From Opitutaceae bacterium (GTDB taxonomy: Bacteria > Verrucomicrobiota > Verrucomicrobiia > Opitutales > Opitutaceae), in contig JABTUS010000008.1 in assembly GCA_015075305.1 (NCBI GenBank), forward strand, positions 62,001-126,000: 64,000 bases of DNA, in the 5' to 3' direction. Of the stretch, positions 15,694-24,857 are shown in pieces. How positions within the stretch are numbered: the stretch's first letter is position 1; each line of letters starts with the position of its first letter. The notes beneath the pieces are model-generated. The model did no database searches and was not told the origin of the DNA. It was given only the letters and a program-made list of their open reading frames with translations. The position numbers and the translations under genes are program-made.

Positions 15694-17079
15694 ATGGCTC
15701 GGCCTATTCCAGATCCCAGGCAGCTCACACTTATTCTCCAAGTCCGTGGAGCGCTTTCGGGCAGGGCATTGGCCGAGGCGATGGGTGTGAGTGAACCTAC
15801 TGTGACGCGGCTGATCAAACGCCTCGGTTCTTCCATCGAACGCGTGGGCGCAGCCCGCAGTTCACGGTATTTGTTGAGGCGCGTGGTCCGCAATTTTGGC
15901 GATCAATGGCCGGTCTATCGCTTGGATGCGGACGGTCGTCCGCGAGTCTGGGGACAACTGCGTGCGTTGCACGGCGGTTTCCGTTTTATTCCGCAAGGTC
16001 CTGCGCCCGCGTGGATGCAGGCGGATTATCCCGACGGCCTGTTTTCCGGTCTGCCTTTTTTCCTGCAGGAAGTTCGACCTCAAGGCTATCTCGGTCGCGC
16101 GATTGCGCGCGATTTTGCTGCGCGTCAGGGAGCTCCGACCGATCTCCGCCAATGGAATGACGATGATGTGCTTTCGTATTTTCTGACTGACGGTCATGAT
16201 TTGCCCGGGGATATGATTGTGGGCGACCGCGCGATGGAACGTGCCCATCGGAGCGCTGAAAATGTGTCGACCACGGCCGTCGCAAACGACGATCGTTCTC
16301 GAGTGTATCCGGAGCAGGCGGCGGCGGCGCAGCGAGGAGAGTTGATCGGTTCTTCCGCAGGCGGAGAACAACCGAAGTTCCTGACCCATGTTTCCCGGCA
16401 ACCCGGCCAGTTCCAATCCGTGCTGGTCAAGTTTTCGTCCGCAGACCCTTCACCGGTTTCACAGCGCTGGGCTGATTTGCTTCGGTGCGAACATCTCGCA
16501 TCCGAAACGATGCGTGCGCGCGGCATCATTGCCGCGCGCACTGAAATCATCGACGCCGGCGGTCGTCGCTTTCTTGAAGTTGAACGTTTCGACCGGATCA
16601 ACGCCTGCGGCCGTCGCGGGATGATTTCGCTCGGCGCCCTCGAGGACGCATTTCTTGCTCAGCCGTCCGCGGATTGGTCGGTCGCAGCGTCATTGCTTGA
16701 AGGAGAAGGTTGGATTTCCGCTGCTGAAGCCCGCTCCCTTCGCTGGATCTGGTGCTTCGGTGATCTCATTGCCAACACCGACATGCACCGCGCCAACGCG
16801 AGTTTTTGGTTTGGCGAGAAGCGGCCTTTTACGCTCACGCGGTTCTACGACATGCTGCCCATGCTCTATGCGCCAGGGTCTCAGGGCGACTTATCTGAGC
16901 GGGCGTTTTTCCCCCGTCCTCCACTTGCTTCGGTCCTGGACGTTTGGCCCGATGCAGCCACTGCGGCTGCGGGATTCTGGGAGCGGGCCGGGGCGGACGC
17001 AGGGCTTGCCCCTTCATTTCGCGCCATCGCTCAGGCGAACTTGTTGGCACTGCGGCGATTGATGGAACGCTTCGTTTAG
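15694..17079 (+). CDS. yjjJ: HipA-family toxin kinase, YjjJ-like, with fused winged-helix N-terminus
   Basis: A 461-residue protein. Residues 10-60 form a DNA-binding winged helix (LSGRALAEAMGVSEPTVTRL) and the rest is a HipA-type Ser/Thr kinase. Visible kinase features are the glycine-rich SSAGGEQPKF near residue 222, a lysine in QSVLVKFSS, a catalytic-loop-like GDLIANTDMHRANASF near 355-370 (Asp and Asn present), and RFYDMLPMLYAP near 382, where HipA has its metal-binding Asp. This arrangement is that of YjjJ (HipH), which lacks a separate HipB because the DNA-binding part is fused. HipA kinases stop growth by phosphorylating translation components; the target here is not known. It stands alone in an islet bounded by direct repeats. 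Confidence 0.88.
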   Translation: MARPIPDPRQLTLILQVRGALSGRALAEAMGVSEPTVTRLIKRLGSSIERVGAARSSRYLLRRVVRNFGDQWPVYRLDADGRPRVWGQLRALHGGFRFIPQGPAPAWMQADYPDGLFSGLPFFLQEVRPQGYLGRAIARDFAARQGAPTDLRQWNDDDVLSYFLTDGHDLPGDMIVGDRAMERAHRSAENVSTTAVANDDRSRVYPEQAAAAQRGELIGSSAGGEQPKFLTHVSRQPGQFQSVLVKFSSADPSPVSQRWADLLRCEHLASETMRARGIIAARTEIIDAGGRRFLEVERFDRINACGRRGMISLGALEDAFLAQPSADWSVAASLLEGEGWISAAEARSLRWIWCFGDLIANTDMHRANASFWFGEKRPFTLTRFYDMLPMLYAPGSQGDLSERAFFPRPPLASVLDVWPDAATAAAGFWERAGADAGLAPSFRAIAQANLLALRRLMERFV

Positions 17080-19923: not shown

Positions 19924-20601
19924 TCAATTGTTCCCGATGGCGTCGTCGGGCAGGCTGCCCTGCAGGCGCTTGCGGAGCTTTATGGCTGCGATTTCGCCGC
20001 GAAGCTGATGTGAAAACAATTGAAGGCGCTGGTTGACGTCGAGGGTTTCCAGAAGGGTCTGTTTGACGGCTGCGTTTTCGCAGAGATTGAAGGCCGCGAT
20101 GTCCACAAAGATCTCCGGGTCATCAACAGTCTGGAGAAACTGGGCGAAATTGCTGTGCGGCTCGCCGTTCAGGTGCTGGCGGATGGACAGCAACCGTTCG
20201 ACCCGGGCGCAGAGCCGCTTGTTTTCCCTCGGGGCAGCGCCGTCCACGCTCGACAAAGGTCTGATGCGGATGTGCCGAAACGGTTGATGTCTGGTCGTTT
20301 CTATGATTTCGATACGGGTCAATCCCTGAAGCAGGAGATTGGATGTTCCGTTCTCGTTCTCCTGACATGCCCTGACGATTCCGACACTGGCTACTTTGTG
20401 CAGGGGTTCAGGCTCACCGGAGGTATTGTTGGGATCGATGCCAGCGACAGCAAAGAGCCGATGGGTCGCCAGAACACTCTTGAGCATCAATCGATAGCGC
20501 TCCTCAAAAATGTGAAGCGGCAGGAGAGCTTGGGGAAAGAATGCGACGTCCCGAAGCGCCATGACTGCGATTTCGTCTGGAACCAGAATTTCAGCCTCCA
20601 T
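19924..20601 (-). CDS. LON-substrate-binding-domain protein
   Basis: A 225-residue cytoplasmic protein made mainly of the N-terminal substrate-binding domain of Lon protease, without ATPase or protease parts. It has EIAVMALRDVAFFPQALLPL, HIFEERYRLML, and SVGIVRACQENENG, then a helical half (RVERLLSIRQHLN, DVNQRLQLFSHQLRGEIA). Such stand-alone LON-domain proteins are widespread but functionally unclear. ATG at 20601 is preferred because AGGCG stands 7 nt before it and the domain starts right after; an upstream ATG at 20652 would add 17 unlikely residues. It is divergent from dnaK, with the TGTGAC-rich control region between. Confidence 0.88.
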   Translation of the reverse strand: MEAEILVPDEIAVMALRDVAFFPQALLPLHIFEERYRLMLKSVLATHRLFAVAGIDPNNTSGEPEPLHKVASVGIVRACQENENGTSNLLLQGLTRIEIIETTRHQPFRHIRIRPLSSVDGAAPRENKRLCARVERLLSIRQHLNGEPHSNFAQFLQTVDDPEIFVDIAAFNLCENAAVKQTLLETLDVNQRLQLFSHQLRGEIAAIKLRKRLQGSLPDDAIGNN

Positions 20602-20644
20602 TGATTTCGCCTGTTTATATGCGGTTTGGGCGCGACACGCAAGG

Positions 20645-20702
20645 TGTGACACTCCTGTGCCTCGTCACAGGATTCCTGAATGATCCTGTCACAAACTGTG
20701 AC
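20645..20702. promoter_or_regulatory. Cluster of TGTGAC/GTCACA boxes between the LON-domain gene and dnaK
   Basis: TGTGAC occurs at 20645-20650 and 20697-20702, and GTCACA at 20664-20669 and 20688-20693. They form nested inverted repeats: GTCACA-AAC-TGTGAC is perfect, CCTGTG-N6-CACAGG is perfect, and GTCACAGGAT-N9-ATCCTGTCAC pairs at 9 of 10. They lie about 130-180 bp upstream of the dnaK start and at the start of the divergent LON-domain gene. No CIRCE element is seen here, so these may be the binding sites of another regulator. Confidence 0.5.
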
Positions 20703-20827
20703 TTACTGACGCGCCGCACGTGGTTGCGATCAAAATGCAGGGCGACGATCAATTTTTTAAGTTATTGATGTGCAGCGCATTGATTTGATATGCAAAATTG
20801 AGGAATGCCCATTGCTGATCAGAGTGC

Positions 20828-22777
20828 ATGAGCCGAATTTTAGGTATCGATCTTGGAACCACCAACTCCTGCATGGCCGTCATGGAAGGCGGCGAGCCCG
20901 TGGTGATTCCCAATGCCGAAGGTGCACGCACGACACCATCAGTGGTGGCCTTCACAAAATCGGGCGAGCGGCTGGTTGGCCAGGCAGCGAAGCGCCAGGC
21001 CGTCACCAATCCCAAGAACACCATTTTTTCCGCGAAACGCTTGATTGGCCGCAAGTTCTCAGAGACCCGTGAGGAGTCCAAGAATTTTCCCTTCAAGGTT
21101 GTGGAGGGCAAGAATAGCGACGCGTATATCGAAGTGCAGGTCGGGGACAAGTCCGAGCAGTTTGCGCCGCAGCAGATTTCCGCGTTTGTCCTGGGTAAAC
21201 TGAAGGCCGATGCCGAAGCCTATCTTGGTGAGAAGATCACCCAGACAGTCATCACGGTTCCGGCCTATTTCAATGATTCGCAGCGCCAGGCCACGAAGGA
21301 TGCGGGCAAGATTGCGGGTCTTGAAGTGCTGCGCATCATCAACGAGCCCACGGCGGCGTCGCTGGCGTACGGGCTCGACAAGAAAAAGGACGAAAAGATC
21401 GCCGTATTCGATCTGGGCGGCGGAACGTTCGACGTGTCGATCCTCGAGATCGGCGACGGTGTGTTCGAGGTAAAGGCCACCAACGGTGACACTCATCTTG
21501 GCGGCGACAACTGGGACGAAGCACTGATCACCTGGCTGGTTGAAACCTTTCAGAAGGAAAACGGCATCGATCTGCGCAAGGATCCGATGGCGCTTCAGCG
21601 TTTGAAGGAAGAGGCTGAGAAAGCCAAGATCGCGCTTTCATCGACTCAGAGCTACGACATCAATCTGCCCTTCATCACGGCGGATGCGACAGGTCCGAAG
21701 CATCTGACCGTGTCCCTCAGCCGCTCGAAAATGGAGCAGATCTGCGATCCCCTTTTCCAGCGCTGCATTCCCCCGTTCAAAAGCTGCCTGAAGGATGCGG
21801 ATCTCGCCAACGACAAGATCGACGAACTCGTCCTGGTCGGAGGCATGACCCGCATGCCGAAGGTTGTGGAAATCGCCCGTCAGCTCGGCGGAAAACCGCC
21901 TCACCAGGGAGTCAATCCCGACGAGGTTGTTGCCGTCGGCGCCGCCATCCAAGGTGGCGTGCTCAAGGGCGACGTCCGTGATGTCCTCCTGCTCGATGTC
22001 ACTCCGCTGACACTCGGCATTGAGACCGCGGGCGGTGTCTCGACGGCGATGATTTCGCGCAATACGACGATTCCATCCAAGAAGACGCAGGTGTTTTCCA
22101 CTTATTCCGACAATCAGCCGTCGGTGGAGATCGTCGTCCTGCAGGGTGAGCGTCCGATGTCGCGCGACAACAAGACGCTTGGAACCTTCCGTCTCGACGG
22201 CATCCCGCCGGCGCCGCGCGGAGTGCCGCAGGTCGAGGTCACGTTCGACATCGACGCAAACGGCATTCTCCACGTGTCCGCAAAGGATCTTGGCACCGGC
22301 AAGGATCAGAAGATTACCATCCAGGGCTCCTCCGGACTCTCGAAAGAGGAAGTCGAGCGCATGACGAAGGAAGCGGAGCTCAACGCCGAATCCGATCGCA
22401 AACGCAAGGAATCGGTCGAGACCAAGAATCAGCTCGACAGCATCACCTACCAGCTCGAGAAGACGCTCAAGGAGGCGGGCGACAAGGTGCCAGCCGACAA
22501 GAAGACCGCGATCGAAGCGGCCATTGGTGAGGCAAAGAAGGCACTCGAGTCCGACGATGCCGACAAGATGAAGGCAGCCATGGAGAACCTCTCCAAGGTG
22601 GGTGCCGACCTTTATGCCGCGGCTGCGGCGGCAGGCGCCGCTCCGGGTGCGGACGCTGCACAGGGCGCATCAGGAGCCGCTGCAGGCGCCGCGTCCTCCG
22701 ACGAGGGCAAGAAAACGGAAAAGAAGGCCAACGTTGTCGACGCCGACTTTGAGGTCGTCGACGAGGACAAGAAGTAG
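20828..22777 (+). CDS. dnaK: Molecular chaperone DnaK (Hsp70)
   Basis: A 649-residue Hsp70. The N-terminal ATPase begins [19 protein letters not shown], followed by [39 protein letters not shown], and [18 protein letters not shown]. The substrate-binding domain follows from about residue 390 ([15 protein letters not shown]), then the helical lid and an Ala/Gly-rich tail ending [12 protein letters not shown], typical of bacterial DnaK. It folds and protects client proteins with DnaJ and GrpE, which are not in this window. It is followed by groES and groEL on the same strand, with about 100 bp and a strong hairpin before groES. Two cysteines in the central part ([12 protein letters not shown]) are unusual but do not touch known catalytic residues. 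Confidence 0.98.
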
Positions 22778-22876: not shown

Positions 22877-23173
22877 ATGGCAAAAGTCAAAATCAAGCCG
22901 ATCGGCGATCGCGTGCTCGTGAAGCACATCGAAGAAAAGGAGCAGGTCCGTGGAGGCATCATCATCCCGGATTCCGCCAAGGAAAAGCCGCAGGAGGCCG
23001 AAGTGATCGCTCTCGGCACGGGCAAGAAGGATGAAAAGGGCAATGTCGTCGCCTTCGAGGTGAAGGTCGGTGACAAGGTCCTGATCAGCAAGTACGGCGG
23101 CACTGAGGTGAAGATCGAAAATGAAAAGTTCACCCTGGTCCGTGAAGACGACATCCTTGGCGTGATCGCCTGA
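22877..23173 (+). CDS. groES: Co-chaperonin GroES (Hsp10)
   Basis: A 98-residue protein that caps GroEL. It begins [20 protein letters not shown] and contains the mobile loop [20 protein letters not shown] and the end [11 protein letters not shown]. The ATG at 22877 gives the family N-terminus; an upstream ATG at 22808 would add 23 residues with no counterpart. It lies 46 bp before groEL, in the normal order. Confidence 0.97.

Positions 23174-23219: not shown

Positions 23220-24857
<1,638 letters not shown>

Follow-up and report, generated by a model that had tools for sequence, protein, structure and literature searches.

A sigma-54 promoter has been described at the hrcA-grpE-dnaK operon of Chlamydia, where it lies in tandem with a sigma-66 promoter and is served by the NtrC-family activator CtcC and the sensor kinase CtcB (PMC7482065, PMC8762339). 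No separate internal dnaK promoter was found in the chlamydial operon (PMC12282069). In a position-matrix survey, sigma-54 control of GroEL, GroES, GrpE, DnaJ, DnaK, and IbpA was predicted in Bacteroidota and Planctomycetota (PMC12316311), and groESL3 of Bradyrhizobium is listed among RpoN-dependent genes (PMC4842269). Verrucomicrobia and Lentisphaerae are reported to lack HrcA, and AtoC is reported to be conserved across the PVC superphylum (PMC4989314).

Here we consider the dnaK locus of an Opitutaceae bacterium, contained in a stretch of 64,000 nucleotides that we call the window. A cluster of TGTGAC-type boxes lies between dnaK and a divergent LON-domain gene (Table 1). Comparison of these upstream sequences and of the regulators encoded in the same genomes suggests, with a probability of roughly 0.8, that the boxes are the enhancer of an NtrC-family regulator, encoded in this genome by L066, which would turn on dnaK-groESL via sigma-54.

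Table 1. Features of the dnaK locus and related features elsewhere in the genome. Positions are those of the window unless a contig of this genome (G000) is named.
Feature	Position	Strand	Details
HipA-like kinase domain protein with N-terminal winged-helix stretch	15694..17079		PF07804
LON-domain (PF02190) gene, 225 aa	19924..20601	-	Pfam 1.4e-27; divergent from dnaK; relatives start at matching ATG
Probable LON sigma-70 promoter	20614..20642	-	-35 TTGCGT 20637-20642, 17 nt, -10 TATAAA 20614-20619
Distal boxes	20645..20669	.	TGTGACA 20645-20651, TGTGCC 20656-20661, GTCACA 20664-20669
Box TGTCACA	20687..20693	.	108 bp before -24 GG; relatives' counterparts at 108-110 bp
Putative core enhancer dyad TGTGACT-TAC-TGACGCG (TGTGACTTACTGACGCG)	20697..20713	.	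88 bp before -24 GG; centre about -122 from predicted start
A/T-rich spacer	20750..20798	+	A/T runs recurring with about the helical period; CAATTTTTTAA at 20750
Predicted sigma-54 (-24/-12) promoter GGAATGCCCATTGCT	20802..20816	+	GG = -25/-24, GC = -13/-12; 12 nt before dnaK ATG
dnaK, 649 aa	20828..22777	+	PF00012 2.7e-266; NF001413 over cut-off
groES	22877..23173	+	PF00166 1.1e-33
groEL	23220..24857	+	PF00118 2.4e-80
PAS-HisKA-HATPase kinase	C5:39279-40583		directly upstream of L066
L066 regulator, NtrC family, 487 aa	G000:C5:40681-42144		REC-Sigma54_activat-HTH_8 by domain search
Predicted sigma-54 promoter TGGCACGCGCATTGCA (L124)	G000:C3:190353-190367		14 nt before flgB-like gene (flagellar rod, by eye); no boxes

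An earlier note on this DNA had reported four TGTGAC-type half-sites before dnaK, and these are real. The exact TGTGAC/GTCACA words stand at 20645-20650 (+), 20664-20669 (-), 20688-20693 (-), and 20697-20702 (+). Four such words in 58 bp is a packing that none of 300 dinucleotide shuffles reached (largest shuffle count, 3). Across the whole 64-kb window the word shows no excess, with 24 copies compared to a chance mean of 26.3. The gap of 175 bp given by the note rested on a GTG start of the LON-domain gene at 20652. Because the start common to relatives is the ATG at 20601, the gap is corrected to 226 bp (20602-20827). The earlier list included neither two degenerate boxes, TGTGCC at 20656 and TGACGCG at 20707, nor the -24/-12 element adjoining dnaK. 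A half-site of the form TGNGNCA starts with TG and ends with CA, so the same half-sites can be read as both direct and inverted repeats, which may explain the overlapping inverted repeats that were described.

HrcA-CIRCE, sigma-32, and CRP/FNR are the usual systems that might be expected to control dnaK, and RpoH is said to be encoded by planctomycetes (PMC4989314), but the evidence at this locus makes control by any of them highly improbable. HrcA (PF01628) was found neither in this genome nor in any of the class genomes searched (0/141), and the same model gave matches in 7 of 14 control genomes. No CIRCE element (TTAGCACTC-N9-GAGTGCTAA) occurs in the 64-kb window at three or fewer mismatches, which agrees with its previously noted absence near dnaK. 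Likewise, exact GCACTC-N9-GAGTGC does not occur in the wider-group dnaK upstreams that were scanned. The best sigma-32 site (CTTGAA-N11-17-CCCCAT) in the gap has 3 of 12 mismatches, and sites this good or better occur in 16 of the 82 family upstreams compared to 23.4 in shuffles. The likeness of the boxes to CRP/FNR sites had also been pointed out, but it does not hold: TGTGA-N6-TCACA is absent from the gap at up to two mismatches, the window as a whole contains 17 such matches where 19 are expected by chance, and what is conserved is a TGNGNCA-N3-TGNCNC unit in phase with a sigma-54 promoter. The proposal that a different regulator acts on the chaperone genes or on the LON-domain gene is partly supported. 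That HrcA was found in none of the 141 genomes indicates a regulator other than HrcA-CIRCE, and the persistence of the boxes where no LON neighbor is recognized (see below) indicates that it mainly serves the chaperones.

To place the locus among its relatives, we read dnaK upstreams from public assemblies of mixed quality, with the dnaK start set at the closest ATG before the DnaK motif. The counts cover 82 Opitutaceae upstreams (of 83 loci taken; the family search gave 110 genomes with a match), 8 from the same order, 52 from other orders of the class (132 of 141 genomes with a match), and 28 of 29 from outside the class (110 of 115 genomes in the phylum search). Rows left out were L224 (no DnaK start), L353 (incomplete), L329 (a second row from the genome of L207), and the repeats L011, L055-L059, and L062; L060 and L061 were read but stand outside the counts. 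The genome that yielded L207 and L329 (G163) has two DnaK genes, with 70% and 64% identity to the window DnaK, and it was the upstream of the first gene that was read.

Immediately before dnaK, the family shares a block of the form GGGCACATGCATTGCT and similar. Such a block is a classic sigma-54 -24/-12 element. Within the genus, GG[AT]A[CT]-N6-TGCT is present in the gap of all nine genomes (of ten) that yielded this DnaK, with 12 or 15 nt between the TGC and the dnaK ATG; from the tenth (G003), no such DnaK was recovered. In 71 of the 82 Opitutaceae upstreams, a strict core (GGHAY-N6-TGC) precedes the dnaK ATG by 10-21 nt, whereas shuffles give a mean of 0.09 (largest 2) and the reversed pattern gives 0. 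When the search is extended to 150 nt, the core is present in 71/82 Opitutaceae, 5/8 other Opitutales, 41/52 upstreams from other orders of the class, and 23/28 from outside the class (composition-shuffle means of 1.33, 0.05, 0.37, and 0.28, respectively). This amounts to 140 of 170 upstreams where about 2 are expected; because the upstreams share descent, shuffle counts overstate their independence, and the safeguard is that the core recurs in many families, including some outside the class. Among 162 control ORFs (non-dnaK, at least 200 aa, mostly from activator loci), the core occurs at 10-21 nt in 2, both of which are activator genes, and at 10-136 nt in 8.

The strict core is lacking from 30 of the 170 dnaK upstreams. 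Seven Opitutaceae (L045, L173, L175, L180, L225, L231, and L242) keep the block except for a substitution at one of the two G positions of the -24 GG. The window itself has GGAAT at -24 compared to GGCAC in the family, and its element is weaker than most. The predicted transcription start of dnaK is near 20827, one nucleotide before the ATG at 20828. Genome-wide, sigma-54-like sites number 70 compared to 127 for the reversed pattern and thus are not enriched. A search of this genome for rpoN gave one PF04552 match (E 6.5e-58). As judged from these comparisons, the dnaK promoter looks like a sigma-54 -24/-12 promoter across most of the sampled members of the phylum.

The GG-N10-GC block might instead be a translational element near the start codon rather than a promoter, given that it lies 11-18 nt before the ATG in all 71 Opitutaceae that have it. 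This constancy is not kept elsewhere, where the TGC-to-ATG distance is 11-143 nt (median 34 nt) for the other orders of the class and 30-86 nt (median 55 nt) outside the class, with the dyad still upstream. Furthermore, no Rfam match was found in 20400-21200. We therefore regard a translational role without a promoter as most improbable.

The best-conserved unit upstream of the promoter is a 17-bp dyad, TGNGNCA-NNN-TGNCNY, for which the Opitutaceae consensus is TGTGACA-NNN-TGGCNYG. The dyad of the window is among the weaker ones, as its boxes end in T and G. Only upstreams with the strict core were counted, using the pattern TGNGNC-N4-TGNCN[CT] at 70-125 bp before the GG. By this measure, the boxes are kept upstream of dnaK in related genomes: the dyad is present in 95 of 140 upstreams (0.3 expected) and absent from this interval in 45. 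By group, it occurs in 54/71 Opitutaceae, 2/5 other Opitutales, 26/41 from other orders of the class, and 13/23 from outside the class, compared to shuffle means of 0.17, 0.01, 0.10, and 0.04. Its position is also kept, with 48 copies at 86-90 bp in the 71 Opitutaceae upstreams. The TGNGNC boxes of this family peak at 96-98, 108-110, 129-131, 138-141, and 150 bp from the -24 GG, or approximately whole helical turns. The distal boxes of the window, at about 130-150 bp before the dnaK -24, are matched in relatives by boxes near 140 and 150 bp. Near-perfect repeated dyads occur outside the Opitutaceae, such as TGTGACATTTTGTCTC followed by TGTGACAATATGTCCC in L295 (family f8) and TGTGACATTTTGTCAC in L359. 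The half-sites additionally recur as direct repeats every 10-12 bp. A pure direct-repeat reading, as for a response regulator of the PhoB type, was not adopted, since conservation is strongest in the 17-bp dyad.

Between the dyad and the promoter, the commonest letters of the spacer (at least 45% of 71 Opitutaceae) read AA.TTTTTTAA...TT..TTA..AA....TTAA, with runs about ten bases apart. It is possible that the spacer bends the DNA. The IHF consensus is found between enhancer and promoter in only 5 of 71 upstreams (shuffle mean 0.59, largest 3), so a bend is a guess, and we make no claim for IHF.

The boxes might also regulate the LON-domain gene, with their nearness to dnaK being incidental. 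In 22 of 50 LON upstreams (shuffle mean 0.2), the TTG of the LON -35 has a box no more than 3 nt upstream of it; in the window, the distal TGTGACA is just upstream of the LON -35. A sigma-70-like pattern, TTGNNN-N16-18-TANNN[TC], is present in 41 of these 50 upstreams (shuffle mean 1.36), and the window promoter, whose -10 ends in A, is among the 9 that miss the strict pattern. This -10 ends 12 nt before the ATG in the window and 6-7 nt before it in most of the printed relatives with a full match, and the LON-domain mRNA may be nearly leaderless. However, 32 of the 82 Opitutaceae upstreams have no recognized LON neighbor within 400 bp, and of the 26 among these that have the promoter, a box occurs at 94-101 bp in 16 and at 136-153 bp likewise in 16. 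In addition, the distance of the dyad to the dnaK -24 is kept, and the dyad precedes dnaK outside the class as well. Regulation of the LON-domain gene alone is therefore very unlikely. Because the boxes remain where no such neighbor is recognized, dnaK is the likely main client, and the position of the distal box directly upstream of the LON -35 suggests that the same regulator may touch the LON-domain gene too.

Sigma-54 needs an activator to open any promoter, and genomes with a single activator thus point to a candidate. Exactly one sigma-54 activator gene (E 1e-40) is present in 7 of the 141 class genomes. In a maximum-likelihood tree of 57 activators, 29 of which come from other genomes and are top Pfam scorers rather than a random draw, all seven sole activators fall within one 15-member clade (support 100/99). 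The same clade holds L066 and, from seven further genomes that encode two or three activators, one apiece, such that each of the 15 genomes with a full activator comparison is represented. Where the dnaK upstream of a sole-activator genome was at hand, the core is present in 6/6 and the dyad at 70-125 bp in 5/6 (four at 86-88 bp). The sixth of these upstreams, L054, has looser boxes only, and in the seventh sole-activator genome, G222, no DnaK match was found. Another genome, G128, has no activator at 1e-40, but it makes an unclean negative control because its dnaK upstream keeps boxes and a TGGCAC block.

L066 has the REC, Sigma54_activat, and Fis-type HTH (HTH_8) domains that characterize the NtrC family. 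No NCBIfam subfamily (AtoC, NtrC, or ZraR) scores over its cut-off, the best being AtoC with 476 bits compared to the 714 needed. A kinase gene immediately precedes the regulator in three of six loci (that of this genome, L368, and L369), and motif searches of the other three (L366, L367, and L370) did not find an adjacent kinase.

Some genes of the clade appear to carry the operator themselves. A dyad lies within 100 nt before the start of 4 of the 15 clade genes (L320, L321, L323, and L326), compared to a mean of 0.09 in 500 shuffles (largest 2), and before none of 7 non-clade activators. These counts use a looser two-strand pattern, by which no dyad was found before the other 11 clade genes, L066 included. 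The stricter one-strand pattern finds none in 17 activator loci, five of which have scattered sigma-54-like cores. In L321, L323, and L326, the dyad is within 30 nt of the regulator start, a placement that would suit self-repression. In L284 and L308, which belong to the wider group holding L063 of this genome, a sigma-54 core lies 12-15 nt before the ATG of the activator gene, and autoregulation is possible there.

If the sigma-54 promoter is real, the boxes could still bind a different activator or a repressor, either another of the six clear sigma-54 activators in this genome or a regulator that recognizes direct repeats of 10-11 bp. The 10-12 bp recurrence of the half-sites would suit the latter, L066 has no dyad before its own start, and in any genome with several activators, another of them could bind the dyad. 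We nevertheless consider this unlikely, given that five of the six sole-activator genomes keep dyads upstream of the dnaK core, that their activators form one clade with L066, and that four genes of this clade carry the dyad themselves. Recognition of the boxes by the L066 clade remains our preferred reading.

We read all 70 sigma-54-like sites of the genome in context in search of a second regulon member. Besides dnaK, only L120 and L126 have two boxes within 170 bp, and these are far apart from each other. The flgB-like gene and genes for PEP-CTERM-like proteins have plausible promoters with one box or none. The latter sites, at C4:195331, C4:201368, C1:668620, and C14:16523 (L130, L131, L111, and L171), precede proteins that look secreted by eye. 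The activators L064 and L065 are PrsR-like by eye.

In the mechanism that we propose, sigma-54 RNA polymerase would sit on the GGAATGCCCATTGCT element and wait. The PAS kinase, which is encoded elsewhere in the genome, would read a signal and phosphorylate the REC-AAA-HTH_8 regulator. The regulator would then bind the dyad and the half-sites around it, some 90-150 bp before the -24, contact the polymerase across the A/T-rich spacer, and remodel it to open the promoter. The product would be a nearly leaderless dnaK-groES-groEL mRNA, with a longer leader outside the Opitutaceae. This scheme draws on sequence-based support, namely that HrcA is not found, rpoN is present, the core and dyad are conserved and phased, and one activator clade accompanies them. 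From these features we infer that the promoter is used, that the regulator binds the boxes, and that the operon reaches groEL. The signal is presumably protein-folding or heat stress, and the distal box may also affect the LON-domain gene.

More tentatively, and with less than an even chance in our estimation, the heat-shock response of Verrucomicrobiota might rely on activation, wherein a dedicated and possibly soluble PAS kinase and its NtrC-family regulator sense folding stress and fire sigma-54 at dnaK, without repression by HrcA or a heat-shock sigma factor. Such a system would be ancient in the phylum, and the chlamydial branch would have kept HrcA and lost the DNA-binding domain of the regulator.

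The analysis names a promoter class, an operator, and a likely regulator for dnaK in a form that lends itself to testing in cultivated members of the group, and it offers a lead on the function of this activator. If true, the main chaperones would come under the direct control of a two-component system. This is an unusual design because sigma-54 promoters are silent until an ATP-driven activator opens them. Among the best-ranked titles and abstracts on sigma-54 and dnaK or heat shock in Verrucomicrobia and Akkermansia, which include few subscription journals, we found no description of such a promoter, enhancer, regulator, or dnaK control, and neither "dnaK" nor "Verrucomicrob-" occurs in the main text of PMC3162934.

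Several known systems resemble parts of this arrangement. NtrC-type enhancers are dyads located about 100-150 bp before a -24/-12 promoter, with half-sites about one helical turn apart. Dyads upstream of a -24/-12 element are likewise found here, but the half-site is TGNGNCA and the target is a chaperone operon. The groESL3 operon of Bradyrhizobium is NifA-controlled and is one of several groESL copies. It is likewise a chaperonin operon with an RpoN-dependent promoter, whereas dnaK-groESL would be controlled here. The predicted Bacteroidota and Planctomycetota chaperone cluster also has sigma-54 promoters before heat-shock genes. However, the chaperone passage of that survey does not include Verrucomicrobiota, which are named for motility, nitrogen fixation, a transporter, and rpoN, and its passages on these subjects mention no enhancer or activator for dnaK (PMC12316311). 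The CtcB-CtcC (AtoC) system of Chlamydia trachomatis is alike in that the dnaK operon has a sigma-54 promoter, with a sensor kinase and an activator of the NtrC family, but Chlamydia keeps HrcA/CIRCE and a sigma-66 promoter, and CtcC is without a DNA-binding domain (PMC7482065). Here, by comparison with the published description of CtcC, HrcA is not found, the regulator has HTH_8, and the enhancer is phased. The proposed arrangement also suggests why the hrcA-grpE-dnaK operon of Chlamydia should have a sigma-54 promoter. Because sigma-54 control of chaperones has already been published for Bacteroidota, Planctomycetota, and in part for Chlamydia, it is not new as such. What is new is that the predicted promoter precedes dnaK in most sampled members of the phylum and comes with its own putative enhancer and a candidate activator, while HrcA is found in no genome searched in the class.
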